NCBI RefSeq assembly: GCF_016863315.1
Contig: NZ_BOOQ01000035.1
Span: 1-64,000, forward strand
Source: Planotetraspora silvatica
GTDB taxonomy: Bacteria > Actinomycetota > Actinomycetes > Streptosporangiales > Streptosporangiaceae
Length of the DNA: 64,000 nucleotides
Reading direction: 5' to 3'
Positions 2,984-38,846 of this stretch are shown here, in pieces. Every line of letters starts with the position of its first letter. Position 1 is the stretch's first letter. The position numbers and the translations under genes were made by a program. The notes under the pieces were generated by a model. That model was not told the origin of the DNA and did not search any database. It saw only the letters and a list, made by a program, of their open reading frames with translations.

Positions 2984-3999
2984 TCACGCACGGTACGGCC
3001 GTCGCCGAGACGGACTGGGAGCGGGCCGTGGAACTGGTCCGCGGCGCGGGCTCGGTCGCGCTCGCCTGCCATGTGTCCCCGGACGGGGACGCGCTCGGGT
3101 CGATGCTGGGCTTCGGTCTGGCCCTGCGGCAGGCGGGCACGGAAGTGGTCGCCTCGTTCGGGGACCAGGGGTTCGCGGTGCCCAGGCTGCTGCGATTCCT
3201 TCCCGGTCAGGACCTCCTGGTGGAGCCGGCGGCCTACCCGGCGGAACCTCCCCTGATGATCACGTTCGACGCCTCCACCATGGACAGGCTCGGCCTGCTC
3301 GTCCCCAACGCGGGCAGGGCCGGGGACCTGGTCGTGCTCGACCATCACGTCTCCAACACCGGTTTCGGGTCGCTGCACCTCATCGACCCGTCCGCCGCCT
3401 CGACCACCGTGATCGTGGAGGAGCTGATCCACCGGCTCGGGCTCACGATCGACCGGGACGTCGCCGTCTGTCTTTACACGGGGCTGGTGACCGACACCGG
3501 GTCCTTCCGATACTCGGCGACCACCCCGGCGGCCCACGCCATGGCCGGGCGGCTGATCGCCGCGGGCCTCCGCCCGGACGAGATCGCCCGCGAGTTGTGG
3601 GACCGGTCGCCGTTCGCCTATCTGCGGGTGCTGGGCGCCGCTCTCGACCGCGTCACGCTGGAGCCCGCCGAGGCCGCCGGCCACGGGATCGTGTGGACCT
3701 ACGTGACCAGGGCCGACCGCGCGGCACATGCCCTGCCGTACGACGAGGTGGAGGGCGTGATCGACGTCGTCCGCCGGGTCGACGAGGCGGACGTCGCGGT
3801 CGTGCTCAAGGAGGCCGACGACGGCGTCTGGAACGTCTCGACCCGCTCCAAGGGCGCCATCGACGTGGGCAGGGCCTGCACCACCCTCGGCGGCGGAGGG
3901 CATCCGTCCGCCGCCGGGTTCTCCTCCCACGTATCCCCGGAAGAGACGATGGCCGCCCTCCGCCCCCACCTCCGCCCCCCACACCCCCCTTCCGCGTGA
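2980..3999 (+). CDS. nrnA: DHH/DHHA1 phosphoesterase (nanoRNase / pAp phosphatase)
   Basis: Cytoplasmic Mn-dependent phosphoesterase of the NrnA group, expected to degrade short oligoribonucleotides and dephosphorylate pAp (family knowledge). Visible motifs: SPDGDALGS (metal-binding DxD), TFDAS, LDHHVSN (the DHH signature), TDTGSFR, and a C-terminal DHHA1 domain with [10 protein letters not shown]. Length 339 aa is normal. The GTG start overlaps the rbfA stop by 4 nt. The TGA stop at 3997-3999 lies inside the first unit of the 53-bp repeat array, so the repeat supplies the end of this gene; the last residues (RPPHPPSA) are low complexity. Confidence 0.93.
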
Positions 4000-4170
4000 T
4001 CATGCACAGGTTCGCGCGCAGGGGTCCCGACCTGCCCCAACCTGACCCGTGATCATGCACAGGTTCGGGTGCGACCTGCCTGACCTGCGACGACCCGATT
4101 CGTGATCATGCGCGAATTCCCGAACATGCACCCTGACCTGCGTACCCTCGTTTCGTGACCATGCATTGGA
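3996..4170 (+). repeat. 53-bp tandem repeat array, locus 1 (three units plus a partial)
   Basis: Unit starts at 3996, 4049, 4102 and 4155, exactly 53 bp apart. Units open with GTGATCATGCACAGGTTCG (first two), GTGATCATGCGCGAATTC (third) and GTGACCATGCAT (partial fourth). A second block, CCGACCTGC or CTGACCTGC, lies near position 31 of each full unit. The intervening sequence diverges. The array fills the whole nrnA-truB gap, overlaps the nrnA stop codon and ends just before the truB ATG at 4177. It reads in the same direction as nrnA. Related arrays are at 12.6 kb and 37.2 kb. Confidence 0.9.
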
Positions 4171-6820: not shown

Positions 6821-7116
6821 GGTCCCGGGGAGCCGCCGGTGTGAGCGGCCCGGGACGAGACAACTGAATAGCCGAGAGGGAGAGGGAGCCGGAAGGCCGA
6901 CTCGACCCGACAGAACATGTGCCCCGCGTCCGCAAGCAAGCAGCACGCGCGATCCCGCGGCGTGAGAGGGCCGGTCCTCGGTAGTGGCCCCCGGTCAGTA
7001 CGGCGACAGCCGTACAGACGAAACCGGGCGCTTCGATCGAAGACCGGCACTGCACCTGAACGGGGAGCCCGGCAAACGGAAGGACGCGGGAGACCGACCC
7101 GAGAAGGAGGTCCCCC
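6821..7116 (+). other. Long pnp leader
   Basis: About 300 nt without a credible gene. It holds a small perfect hairpin (GTACGGC at 6998-7004 with GCCGTAC at 7009-7015, loop GACA) and ends in the strong ribosome site GAAGGAGG about 7 nt before the pnp GTG. Probably the pnp 5' leader after RNase III processing or from an internal promoter; I could not fix a promoter by eye. Confidence 0.5.
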
Positions 7117-9423
7117 GTGGAGGGTGTCCACAGCACGGAAGCCGTTATCGATAACGGCTCCTTCGGCACGCGCACGATCCGGTTCGAGACCGGTCGCCTC
7201 GCGCGCCAGGCGGCAGGAAGCTCCGTCGTCTATCTCGACGACGAGACGATGGTCCTGTCCGCCACCACCGCGTCCAAGAATCCCAAGGAGAACTTGGACT
7301 TCTTCCCGCTCACCGTCGACGTCGAGGAGCGGATGTACGCCGCGGGCCGGATTCCCGGCTCGTTCTTCCGCAGGGAGGGCCGGCCGTCCGAGGACGCGAT
7401 CCTCACCTGCCGCCTGATCGACCGGCCGCTGCGCCCGTCGTTCGTCAAGGGCCTGCGCAACGAGATCCAGGTCGTGGCGACCGTCATGTCGCTGCACCCG
7501 GACCACCTGTACGACGTGGTCGCGATCAACGCGGCCAGCCTGTCCACGCAGCTCGCCGGCCTGCCGTTCTCCGGCCCGATCGGCGGCGTCCGCGTCGCGC
7601 TGATCGAGGGCCAGTGGGTGGCGTTCCCGACCCACCCCGAGCTCGAGAACGCCACGTTCGACATGGTCGTGGCGGGTCGTGTCCTGGCGGACGGCGACGT
7701 CGCGATCATGATGGTCGAGGCCGAGTCGACGCGCGACACGCTCAAGCTGGTCGCCGAGGGCGCGGTCGCCCCGACCGAGGAGACCGTGGCCCAGGGCCTC
7801 GAGGCGGCCAAGCCGTTCATCAAGGTTCTGTGCGACGCGCAGGCGAAGCTGGCCGGGGTCGCCGCCAAGGAGACCGCGGAGTACCCGATCTTCCTGGACT
7901 ACCAGGACGACGTCCTGGAGGCCGTCACCGCGGCCGTCAGCACCGAGCTCGCCTCCGCGCTGACCATCGCGGGCAAGCAGGAGCGCGAGCTCGAGATCGA
8001 GCGGGTCAAGGCGCTCGCCGCGGAGAAGGTCCTCGCCGACTTCGAGGGCCGGGAGAAGGAGGTCGGCGCCGCGTTCCGGTCGCTGACCAAGAAGCTCATG
8101 CGCGCGCGCGTCATCAAGGAGGGCGTCCGCATCGACGGCCGCGGCCCCAAGGACATCCGGCAGCTCAACGCCGAGGTCCACGTGGTCCCGCGGGTGCACG
8201 GTTCGGCGCTGTTCGAGCGCGGTGAGACCCAGATCCTCGGGATCACCACGCTGAACATGCTCCGCATGGAGCAGATGATCGACACGCTGAACCCCGAGCG
8301 CACCAAGCGCTACATGCACAACTACAACTTCCCGCCGTACTCCACCGGTGAGACCGGCCGCGTGGGCTCGCCCAAGCGCCGCGAGATCGGCCACGGGGCG
8401 CTCGCCGAGCGCGCGCTCATCCCCGTGCTGCCCTCGCGTGAGGAGTTCCCGTACGCGATCCGGCAGGTGTCGGAGGCGCTGGGCTCGAACGGCTCGACCT
8501 CGATGGGCTCGGTCTGCGCCTCGACGATGGCCCTGCTCGACGCGGGTGTCCCGCTCAAGGAGATGGTGGCCGGCATCGCCATGGGTCTCATCGGCGAGGG
8601 CGACCAGTTCGTCACGCTGACCGACATCCTCGGCGCCGAGGACGCCATGGGCGACATGGACTTCAAGGTCGCCGGCACCAAGGACGTCATCACGGCCCTG
8701 CAGCTCGACACCAAGCTGGACGGCATCCCGGCCAGCGTGCTGGCGGCCGCGCTCAAGCAGGCGCGCGGCGCGCGGCTGGCGATCCTGGACGTGATGCAGG
8801 AGGCCATCGACTCCCCGGCGGAGATGAACCCGACGGCGCCGCGCATCATCACGATCAAGGTCCCGGTAGACAAGATCGGCGAAGTCATCGGCCCCAAGGG
8901 CAAGATGATCAACCAGATCCAGGACGACACCGGCGCCGAGATCACGATCGAGGACGACGGCACGATCTACATCGGCGCCACCGACGGCCCGTCGGCCGAG
9001 GCGGCCCGGACGCTGATCAACGGCATCGCGAACCCGCACATGCCGGAGGTCGGCGAGCGCTACCTGGGCACGGTCGTCAAGATCGCCGCCTTCGGCGCGT
9101 TCGTGTCGCTGCTGCCCGGCAAGGACGGCCTGCTGCACGTCTCTCAGATCCGCAAGCTGCACGGCGGCAAGCGCATCGAGAACGTCGAGGACGTCATGAG
9201 CGTCGGCGAGAAGGTCCAGGTCGAGATCGCCGAGATCGACGCCCGCGGCAAGCTGTCGCTGGTGCCGGTCGAGGTCGTCGAGAAGGAGGCCGCGGAGAAG
9301 GCGGCCGGTGGCGGCGACGAGGTCGAGAGCGCGCCCGTGGCGGCGGCGGAGCCGCAGGACGAGCAGCGCACGGAGAGGCCGCGCCGCCGCACCCGCGGTG
9401 GCCGGGACGACCGCAACTCGTGA
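7117..9423 (+). CDS. pnp: Polynucleotide phosphorylase
   Basis: 3'-5' phosphorolytic exoribonuclease; in actinomycetes it also adds RNA 3' tails and has been described as guanosine pentaphosphate synthetase. 768 aa: two RNase PH-like domains (the second around [13 protein letters not shown] and [17 protein letters not shown]), then a KH domain ([18 protein letters not shown]), an S1 domain ([20 protein letters not shown]), and an Arg/Asp-rich tail. GTG start with GAAGGAGG upstream. The stop overlaps the start of the M16 peptidase by 4 nt (GTGA), indicating coupling. Confidence 0.98.
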
Positions 9424-12485: not shown

Positions 12486-12539
12486 TTTCTTACCTTTTCT
12501 TGCTTGTCTTGCCTTCGCGGGACCGCGAAAGGGACGCCT

Positions 12540-12712
12540 GGGATGCATGATCACGAACTGAATGCCCACAGGTCACAGCCGCGCGCGCGAATCTGCGCAT
12601 GATCGCGCCCGAAGAGCGTGCTGGTCGGAGGCCATATGCACGAACCTGTGCATGATCACGCCCGGGGGGAGGGCAGGTCGGACGGGGTGGGCGCGAAGGT
12701 GTGCATGATCAC
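12540..12712 (-). repeat. 53-bp tandem repeat array, locus 2 (three units plus a partial)
   Basis: On the minus strand, unit starts fall at 12712, 12659, 12606 and 12554: spacings 53, 53 and 52. Units open GTGATCATGCACACCTTCG, GTGATCATGCACAGGTTCG, GCGATCATGCGCAGATTCG and GTGATCATGCATCC (partial). The second block reads CCGACCTGC, CCGACCAGC and TGACCTGTG at the equivalent place. It starts 20 nt after the GNAT gene's stop and runs in that gene's direction towards menA, so strand and gene context mirror locus 1. Confidence 0.9.
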
Positions 12713-12731
12713 GGCGGAGGGGGGCGGGGGG

Positions 12732-13316
12732 TCAGCTGATGTCGGTGGTCAGGCGGATCATGCGGATGGGGCGGCCCATGTCGAGCACGCGCTCCGCACC
12801 GTCCTCGCCCCAGCCGGCCGACTCCAGGAAGCCGACCATCGCGTGATCGTCGGCGAAGACCCACGTCACCACGGTGCGGATGCCGTCGTCGCGCAGGTGG
12901 TCGACGGTCGCGTTGAGGAGCCTGCTGCCGTGACCACGCCGGATGTGATTGGGGTCGATCAGCAGGGTGAGCAGCTCCGCGGTCGTGGAGGGGCTCACGT
13001 CCGGGTCCTCGGCCGGTCCGTGCGAGGCCAGCCCGACGACGCGATCGGAGTCCGACGACTCCTCGGTCTCCGCGGCGTCCGAGGTTTCGCTGTCGGGCAT
13101 GACGCGTTCCACGGCCACGAGCACGCGATGCCGGGGAGTGGGCGGCGAGACGATCGCCTCGTCCCACTGGCGGCGCCACATCTTCTCGGCGGCCGCACCC
13201 GTCATCTGCTCCAGCGGACCGGGCGGCAGGAAGTCGCGGTAGCCGTACTTCCACGCGCGGATCTGGGTGCTCGTCACCGCTTCGACGTCCTCGAGGCGAG
13301 CAGTCCTGACACCCAT
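12732..13316 (-). CDS. GNAT family N-acetyltransferase
   Basis: 194-aa acetyl-CoA-dependent acyltransferase; substrate unknown. The GNAT core shows LLTLLIDPNHIRRGHGSRLLNATVDHL, with the R-R-G-H-G acetyl-CoA loop (consensus Q/RxxGxG/A), and GFLESAGW at the end. An acidic Ser/Glu insertion (SETSDAAETEESSDSD) sits between early strands. ATG at 13316 is chosen: GGGAG lies 9 nt upstream, while the in-frame TTG at 13325 abuts it. The stop of the upstream CGNR gene ends 6 nt before this ATG, so the two form an operon. Confidence 0.88.
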   Translation of the reverse strand: MGVRTARLEDVEAVTSTQIRAWKYGYRDFLPPGPLEQMTGAAAEKMWRRQWDEAIVSPPTPRHRVLVAVERVMPDSETSDAAETEESSDSDRVVGLASHGPAEDPDVSPSTTAELLTLLIDPNHIRRGHGSRLLNATVDHLRDDGIRTVVTWVFADDHAMVGFLESAGWGEDGAERVLDMGRPIRMIRLTTDIS

Positions 13317-37199: not shown

Positions 37200-37322
37200 G
37201 GCTTCTGCATGATCACCATGACCGGCGGTGCAGGTCAGCGGGCACTCTTCCGAATCCGTGCATGATCATGCTTGAAGAATTCGCAGGCGGAGGGGTGCAG
37301 GACCGAACTTGTGCATGATCAC
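37200..37322 (-). repeat. 53-bp tandem repeat array, locus 3 (two units plus a partial)
   Basis: Minus-strand unit starts at 37322, 37269 and 37216, exactly 53 bp apart. Units open GTGATCATGCACAAGTTCGG, ATGATCATGCACGGATTCGG and GTGATCATGCAGAAG (partial). The second block reads CCGCCTGC and CTGACCTGC at about position 31. The array lies just downstream of a hairpin and overlaps the 3' end of the pectate lyase frame, which reads V-I-M-H-K-F-G through the first unit. Confidence 0.88.
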
Positions 37323-38846
37323 GCCCACTCGGGGGCCGGGCTCGATGGCGAGCCCGGCCCTGAGCGCCCTGGGCGCCCTGGGCCTGAGGCGCCCCGGGCC
37401 CGGCGCGATCGCCGCGCCGGTCGGGACGGGGACGGGGCAGGACAGGTGACCCGCACCCGCGTGGCGGGACACCTCCCGCCTGACCGTGCCCGCGGGGTCG
37501 ATCCGCGTGTGCAACGTCGGGGTCCATCCCGCGTCGGTGCCCAGGTCGGGGTCGTGGGCCGCGTTGTAAACGCCGACCAGGTCGATCGGCCGCTCCTTCC
37601 CGCCGACGCGCAGCAGGTTGCCGCGTGCGGTCAGCGTCGTGCCGCCCCAGTCGTAGAGCAGCGCCGCCGGGTCGACGGCGCGGCTCAGCCGGAAGTAGTT
37701 GTTCTCCGCGACGATCTGGGACTGCACGCCGACGCCGATCGCGTAGACGAACGTGGCTGCGTCGGGGACCTCGTAATAGTTGTCGTAGACGTGGACCTTG
37801 CCGAACCGCACGCGGGGCAGTCGCTGGAGCGTGTCGGAGAAATGGTTGTGGTGAACGGTCACGCTGAGCTTCCCGGCATCGGCCGCCGGGTTGTTGGTCG
37901 AGCCGATCAGCATGGTCTTGTCGTGGCCGGAGAACTCGTTCCATGACACGGTCACGAAGTCGGACCCGTTGGTGATGTCCGTCTGCCCGTCGTGCACCTG
38001 GTACGGCCGGCCGAAGTAGAGCGGCTGGGCGGAGTCGGGGTTGGTGCCGTCGGTGAAGGTGTTGTGGTCCACCCAGACGTGTGTCGAGCCGGTCACCGAG
38101 ATGTTGTCGTAGAGCGAGTTCCAGTTGCCCGTCTCACCGTCCGTGGGGTCCCACTGGGGGAAGCAGTCGACCGCGTCCTCGAACCGGATGTTGCGGATGA
38201 TGACGTTGTCGGCCTTGTCGACGTGCAGGTTGAGATGCCGGATCGTCGCGCCGGGCAGGCCGACGATCGTGGTGTCCGACGGCACCTTCAGCTTGATGTG
38301 GGCGGTCTGGTTCGCCGCCGAGGCGGCCCTGGCGTCTTCGAGGGGGCCGGACGGCTCGGCGTCCCTGCCCCAGACGGCCGGGTCGTAGGCGGCGAGGTAG
38401 CCCGCGAGCGTGTATCCGTCCGTGGCGTAGTCGGCGCAGCTCCTGCCGCTGTCGAGGCGGCCCTTGACGTAGATGATCCGGGGACCGGGCGCGGCCAGCG
38501 CCGCCGCGAGCTGCGACCGGCTGGTGACGGTGTGGACGTTCGCCGGTGGGGCCGCGGCTCCACCGGTCGTCCCGGTCCCCGCGGACGCCCAGCCGTCGTT
38601 CGCGGGCAGGATCCGACGGCCGAGCCCGGCGCCGAGCCCGGCGCCGTGCTCGGCGCCGGCGGTGCTGACGGCGCCGGCACCCGTGCCGGTAGTCGTGTCA
38701 GTGGTCGTGTCGGTAGCCGTGGCGATGGTGCTGACGACGCCGGTGGCCGTCCCGGTGGCGGCCGCCTCGCTCGCGGTCGCCGCCCCGGCGGGCGCGGCCG
38801 TCGCGAGCGCCAGAACGGCCGACAGGAGGAGGGTCTTGTTGCGCAT
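37266..38846 (-). CDS. Secreted pectate lyase, PL1 family, with an extended C-terminus
   Basis: 526 aa with a signal peptide (MRNKTLLLSAVLALATAAPAG, cleavage after AGAATA is likely), a Thr/Gly/Ala linker to about residue 75, and a PL1 right-handed beta-helix: HVWVDHNTFTDG (calcium Asp), SGHDKTMLIGS and LPRVRFGKVHVYDNYY (catalytic Arg region). Ca-dependent beta-elimination of polygalacturonate. PL1 homologues end near HAGAGHL; here about 60 Pro/Arg/Ala-rich residues follow, running through a terminator-like hairpin and into the 53-bp repeat, so the true stop was probably lost or lies upstream by frameshift. Downstream of kdgD2 in the same direction. Confidence 0.9.
   Translation of the reverse strand: MRNKTLLLSAVLALATAAPAGAATASEAAATGTATGVVSTIATATDTTTDTTTGTGAGAVSTAGAEHGAGLGAGLGRRILPANDGWASAGTGTTGGAAAPPANVHTVTSRSQLAAALAAPGPRIIYVKGRLDSGRSCADYATDGYTLAGYLAAYDPAVWGRDAEPSGPLEDARAASAANQTAHIKLKVPSDTTIVGLPGATIRHLNLHVDKADNVIIRNIRFEDAVDCFPQWDPTDGETGNWNSLYDNISVTGSTHVWVDHNTFTDGTNPDSAQPLYFGRPYQVHDGQTDITNGSDFVTVSWNEFSGHDKTMLIGSTNNPAADAGKLSVTVHHNHFSDTLQRLPRVRFGKVHVYDNYYEVPDAATFVYAIGVGVQSQIVAENNYFRLSRAVDPAALLYDWGGTTLTARGNLLRVGGKERPIDLVGVYNAAHDPDLGTDAGWTPTLHTRIDPAGTVRREVSRHAGAGHLSCPVPVPTGAAIAPGPGRLRPRAPRALRAGLAIEPGPRVGVIMHKFGPAPLRLRILQA
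37333..37360. terminator. Perfect hairpin inside the pectate lyase 3' extension
   Basis: GGGCCGGGCTCG (37333-37344) and CGAGCCCGGCCC (37349-37360), loop ATGG on the plus strand. In position it looks like the original terminator of the pectate lyase gene, but the present reading frame continues through it by about 65 nt. Confidence 0.6.

Follow-up and report, generated by a model that had tools for sequence, protein, structure and literature searches.

Several described systems share traits with the repeat arrays analysed here. REP/BIME elements and their RAYT partners have in common with the arrays hundreds of intergenic copies, inverted pairs, a species-specific sequence and a patchy distribution, and BIMEs bind gyrase. 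The REP/BIME unit is, however, a palindromic hairpin of 20-40 bp, whereas the arrays consist of 53-bp units that are not hairpins, with three to five ordered cores at orthologous sites. Rho-dependent terminators likewise have, at the ends of genes, a sense-strand stretch of 70-80 nt that is C-rich and G-poor, but no phased and conserved multi-site motif follows downstream of the known ones, and termination at the arrays is a prediction. DNA uptake sequences (DUS) of Neisseriaceae and Pasteurellaceae are short genome-wide motifs with dialects and with facing pairs at gene ends; to our knowledge, they lack a fixed 53-bp multi-core array, a second conserved block (block B, see below) and an upstream C-rich tract. 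CRISPR arrays also consist of short repeats at regular spacing, but the arrays described here have at most five to six cores, occur at hundreds of loci and keep conserved positions in their spacers, which share TTCG, GACCTG and AC.C at fixed places. In eukaryotic rDNA, the Sal-box/TTF-I and Reb1 roadblock terminators are polar repeated sites that lie directly downstream of a gene and in its orientation. Here, the likeness is an analogy of working principle only, since the sequences are unrelated, the arrays are spread over the genome rather than confined to rDNA, and their protein is putative. None of the families tested matches the array architecture. The open-access literature searched contained no description of the repeat, and an earlier description elsewhere is possible.

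Architecture of the arrays

We analysed a stretch of 64,000 nucleotides from Planotetraspora silvatica (hereafter the window), in which the initial annotation had reported a dispersed, non-coding repeat with a strict 53-bp period at three loci. All three arrays were recovered with exactly the reported unit starts and spacings, one spacing being 52 bp (Table 1). With up to three mismatches allowed, block A matched eight times in the window, seven of these matches lying within the three arrays, compared to 0.00 matches in 100 dinucleotide shuffles. In the whole 8.66-Mb genome, 747 copies (383 forward, 364 reverse) were found, and none with the reversed pattern used as control. Across several Planotetraspora species, 178 arrays were measured: neighbouring cores were 53 bp apart in 491 cases, 52 bp in 21 and 54 bp in five. 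The annotation had considered a functional element unlikely if the genome held no further copies, or held them at random places without the 53-bp spacing; the genome-wide search revealed neither situation and bore out a dispersed family of fixed geometry.

The elementary structure, termed an arm, is polar and consists of three to five cores (GTGATCATGCA) at 53-bp spacing with a C-rich, G-poor tract in front. The core is near-palindromic. The 42-bp spacers retain TTCG, [CT]GACC[TA]G[CG] and AC.C at set positions, the last core of the arms is bare, and the sequence of a unit depends on its rank, the first unit being the most uniform. Arms are single or in facing pairs; among the paired arms, all face each other and none were seen back to back. 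In one genome, the last cores of facing arms were exactly 13 bp apart in seven of 26 pairs, with unrelated sequence in between (p about 6e-9, assuming a probability of 0.01 for a given distance), and other facing-pair centres contained hairpins resembling ordinary terminators. A helical phasing of facing arms outside the 13-bp class was rejected: the pooled gaps seemed periodic, but the nR2 of about 2 in a single genome was not significant.

Table 1 Coordinates of the three arrays in the 64-kb window and of the features belonging to them.
Feature	Positions	Strand	Description
Arm 1	3996..4165	+	cores at 3996, 4049, 4102 and 4155 plus three 42-bp spacers; nrnA/truB interval
nrnA stop TGA	3997-3999	+	inside first core of arm 1
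C-rich, G-poor tract of arm 1	3918..3995	+	44 C, 13 G, C/G 3.4; before first core, overlaps nrnA 3' end
Block A, first unit of arm 1	3996..4014	+	GTGATCATGCACAGGTTCG, exact family consensus
Block B, first unit of arm 1	4028..4035	+	CGACCTGC, unit positions 32-39
Last core of arm 1, bare	4155..4165	+	GTGACCATGCA; no TTCG after it; truB start codon 11 bp on
Arm 2	12544..12712	-	cores at 12712, 12659, 12606 and 12554 (spacings 53, 53, 52); GNAT acetyltransferase gene before, UbiA-family gene after
C-rich tract of arm 2	12713..12790	-	C/G 2.35; before first core, spans GNAT stop
Terminator-like hairpin	12495..12543	-	CCTTTCGCGG..CCGCGAAGG, directly beyond bare last core of arm 2; fold z -2.1
Arm 3	37206..37322	-	cores at 37322, 37269 and 37216; between convergent pectate lyase and aldehyde dehydrogenase genes
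Region before arm 3	37323..37400	-	C/G 1.0, no tract with C above G; hairpin GGGCCGGGCTCG..CGAGCCCGGCCC instead

Location relative to genes

In order to count locations, 1.65 Mb of the genome was used, with intergenic regions of at least 120 bp and with genes from a Markov-model caller instead of an existing annotation. Convergent regions contained arms in 16 of 75 cases, tandem regions in 28 of 383 and divergent regions in 5 of 189 (p = 3e-6 for convergent versus divergent), an intergenic siting with few copies in divergent promoter regions as in REP/BIME. Arm-side gaps were bordered by a gene 3' end in 48 cases and by a gene 5' end in 27. Of the 48 arms at gene 3' ends, 13 had the stop codon TGA inside their first core, none started 0-6 bp downstream of the stop, and the remaining ones mostly started 7-50 bp downstream; in a larger, partly non-independent set, the stop lay inside the first core in 28 of 118. 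Arm 3 begins within the pectate lyase reading frame; this frame stops at the TGA of the second core. The arrays run in the direction of the gene in all three cases in the window, but not in general, given the 27 gaps at gene 5' ends, and a strict co-orientation with the upstream gene was not supported by the single arms in tandem regions (10 co-directional versus 6 opposite, p = 0.23). Some arms end near the next start codon, as for truB in the window and for an argG-like gene in L130. Genes enclosed by widely spaced arms (typA, a cobD-like gene, a P450 gene and others) are housekeeping genes, for which reason an autonomous mobile element between the arms was rejected. At window positions 37266-37400, the pectate lyase frame continues across the first 53-bp unit of arm 3 (..GVIMHKFG..).

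Conservation, dialects and distribution

The positions of the arrays are orthologous in five Planotetraspora species, often in a neighbouring genus and sometimes in a third, and the same arrays were found in P. kaengkrachanensis, P. mira and P. phitsanulokensis. All five Planotetraspora species and the neighbour genus g59 have the nrnA-truB array, which the nine other genera read at that locus lack; its truB-proximal unit is near-invariant across the five species. Within a 100-kb region, the arms of the window genome have orthologues in P. mira and P. kaengkrachanensis wherever this region was covered, mostly also in G022 and P. phitsanulokensis, and at three of the four positions mapping to G059. 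Some positions are common even to g34; one of them is the 3' end of leuA, which has retained both the array and the terminator hairpin but with block A respelled. In P. phitsanulokensis, the 100-kb region has fewer units and two arrays are missing. The genome of this species (G078) contains 147 53-bp pairs compared to 522-631 in its sister species, i.e. about a quarter, and its arms are shorter; possibly, the species is losing the array system.

Between two species, identity amounted to 96% in the core, 80% in the tail of block A, 78% in block B and 54-55% in the spacers, compared to 70% in the sequence beyond, in agreement with the earlier proposal that selection acts on geometry and not on spacer sequence. 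The spelling of block A is genus-specific; it was altered throughout the genome and without a move of the sites, whereas the C-rich tract, block B and the 53-bp frame are constant. It reads GTGATCATGCACAGGTTCG in arm 1 of the window, GTGATCATGCAGAAGTTCG in G022, ..CAGGTTCCCG in G059, GTGATCTTGTAGTTTGTCGCA in g65 and GTGATCTTGC..CTCGCA in g34. In G022, 784 copies near GTGATCATGCAGAAGTTCG were counted and only 10 of the CAC form, and orthologous sites were recoded in place between dialects. A scan of the order (347 genomes) revealed abundant 53-bp GTGATC pairs only in g1, g59, g34 and five of sixteen g65 species; it also yielded two pairs in g51 and, in two g61 species, one orthologous relic each.

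RNA structure and mobility

No pairing covariation was detected in 524 units, coupling being mostly between adjacent columns, and the middle units showed no excess folding (z -0.31 compared to -0.35 for random DNA). An RNA hairpin as the repeat unit was therefore rejected, and the initially suggested 3'-UTR element was not supported as a folded RNA. A GC-rich hairpin with a T run, as in intrinsic terminators, is not the repeat unit; hairpins occur only beside some arms. Well-folding sequences were found at 43% of the two-arm centres, and at four of 59 single-arm ends the loop of a strong hairpin contained the last core. Such stable hairpins enclosing the last core (fold z -3 to -9) are located at C2:346914 in G000 and at L088:2808, L112:977 and L138:379, and give the impression of a terminator added to the core. 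Rfam gave no match at the arrays; its sole match in the window is Actino-pnp, a known cis-regulatory RNA, at 6970-7048 upstream of the gene at 7117.

With regard to mobility, Y1_Tnp (PF01797, RAYT) was absent from the window genome and six other array-bearing genomes (G000, G105, G126, G078, G059, G187 and G216), and a Y1 transposase does occur in some other array-bearing genomes. A REP/RAYT system was rejected, as the window genome lacks Y1_Tnp and the units are not hairpins. Searches of phages, plasmids and IMG/VR did not find the arrays, and an origin from phage or plasmid was discarded on this basis. At the one presence/absence site that was read, the array is found in two lineages and missing in others, and the flanks in this single case have no repeats. 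The idea that a mobile process had copied the arrays was not supported, given their orthologous positions, the unrepeated flanks at this one empty site and the lack of a REP-type transposase in the window genome.

The C-rich tract and Rho

The excess of C over G before the first core forms a strand-specific gradient across roughly 70 bp that rises towards the core. In the 78 nt before the arms, the median C/G was 1.86 after a gene 3' end and 2.23 after a gene 5' end, compared to 1.04-1.05 at control sites (p = 2e-19 and 1e-13, respectively), and the tract is also retained in g34, G059, G022 and g65. The tract, which arms 1 and 2 of the window have and arm 3 lacks, shows the surplus of C over G that is part of the published description of rut sites and is the one used by RhoTermPredict (PMC6407284). 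Canonical Rho was present in all eight genomes searched. A template-strand G-quadruplex as the cause of the C-rich tract was rejected, the signal being weak (19 of 76 versus 11.5 in shuffles). A second Rho gene, which had seemed a promising partner protein because of its place next to arrays in Planotetraspora and G059, was also rejected, since its distribution does not track that of the arrays: every g65 species tested has it, whether or not arrays are present, as do some further genera, but the array-bearing g34 lacks it.

Possible function of the arrays

We propose, with a probability of roughly 45%, that the arms are polar multi-site arrays for one putative sequence-specific DNA-binding protein and mark transcription borders, perhaps with the involvement of Rho. 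Recognition of DNA by a protein is suggested by conservation by position, by the lack of covariation and folding and by the fixed geometry of the centres; a protein-binding array near gene ends, one of the readings put forward in the initial annotation, is likely. The transcription border reading is based on the location of the arms, their contact with stop codons, their polarity and the C-rich tract. According to this model, protomers would bind cores 53 bp apart, and three to five sites would make up one directional complex; since 53 bp correspond to about five helical turns, the cores would lie on the same face of the helix. A polymerase arriving from the C-rich outer side would meet the bound array and halt. 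The C-rich tract before the first core would probably act as a rut-like loading site, and Rho loaded there is proposed to release the stalled polymerase. Some arms would additionally finish in a hairpin terminator, and two facing arms would insulate a border from both sides. The dialects may have arisen by co-evolution of the sites with one trans-acting protein, which would fit better than gene conversion; the latter is an unlikely source since the short blocks change in concert although the spacers of a genome are unrelated to one another.

Some observations argue against the boundary model. For about a third of the arms (27 of 75), the gene end that they face is a 5' end, and the single arms in tandem regions are weakly co-directional (10 versus 6). 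In addition, the nrnA-truB array lies within the conserved gene series infB-rbfA-nrnA-truB, with 11 bp between its end and truB, so that a strong terminator at this place would require a promoter inside the array. Since some arms adjoin ordinary hairpin terminators, arms would not always be the sole terminator. Arm 3 of the window has no C-rich tract, and the distribution of the second Rho gene, found in array-free g65 species but not in g34, differs from that of the arrays.

The 5'-facing arms agree with a topology or nucleoid site, for which gene co-orientation is not required: the array would anchor a nucleoid protein or a topoisomerase between genes, with a secondary effect on transcription. 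Location bias like that of known intergenic gyrase and IHF sites, a phased multi-site build and the preferred 13-bp centre of facing arms point in the same direction, but neither the strand-specific surplus of C rising to the first core nor arm starts in stop codons or no more than about 30 bp from them would be explained, and we regard this reading as rather unlikely. We consider it improbable that the arms derive from a non-autonomous MITE- or REP-like element that spread early, is now inert and was purged near promoters by purifying selection. High copy number, patchy distribution (five of sixteen g65 species), inverted pairs and the array found in two lineages and absent from others are in line with such an origin; orthologous positions within and partly between genera, cores conserved despite diverged spacers, a motif altered in place, unrepeated flanks at one empty site, the lack of Y1 transposase in the seven genomes checked, the housekeeping genes between arms and the failure to find copies in phages, plasmids and IMG/VR speak against it.

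Slightly more improbable still is an operator array through which a global regulator would act on initiation at the downstream gene, as the promoter-rich divergent regions are poorest in arms (5 of 189) and two-arm elements lie between convergent genes, where there is no promoter to control, even though some arms come close to the next start (truB, the argG-like gene in L130) and the truB-proximal unit is near-invariant in five species. To a folded RNA element of the 3' UTR we give very little credit: facing cores would be able to pair as RNA, and the folding of 43% of two-arm centres and the last core in a hairpin loop at four of 59 single-arm ends would suit it, but 524 units without covariation, unfolded middle units and no Rfam match at the arrays largely refute it for the units, though not for the terminal hairpins. 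Sequence drive, in which a DNA-processing machine would favour copies of the motif and give rise to species dialects, appears equally far-fetched, because the fixed 53-bp multi-core array, block B and the C-rich tract differ from what we know of DUS. The arrays do resemble DUS (PMC3630211 and PMC2397512) in numbering hundreds of copies, in having vertical dialects and in forming facing pairs at the ends of genes.

If polar transcription boundaries are indeed what the arms form, gene borders in some bacteria would be marked by a dedicated phased protein array, beyond hairpins or Rho alone, and polar roadblock terminators would then have a counterpart in bacteria. The most far-reaching version, a new bacterial boundary system in which one putative protein would act at hundreds of polar arrays by directional polymerase block together with Rho, and would co-evolve with its sites into genus dialects, is possible but doubtful. 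The dialects would then be a natural experiment, in which a protein and several hundred sites shift specificity together. The presence of arrays in five of sixteen g65 species would offer a route to the putative binding protein. With its patchy distribution and high copy number, the array family is a strong lead.

Further core-like and array-associated sequences

In L160 (G061), from a genus without arrays, short tandem repeats around TTGATCATGAGCC, which are core-like, directly follow the nrnA stop. In genus g50 (G050:C124:533-599 and G091:C2:54838-54893), GTGATCATGCACTT[AG]TTCG occurs in close inverted pairs without the 53-bp spacing, and these pairs may be unrelated to the arrays. The second Rho gene, which is N-terminally short (L290:777-1964, G000:C81; L291-L296), is located near aldehyde dehydrogenase genes; arrays flank it in four of the five Planotetraspora species, and in G059 it also lies beside arrays.
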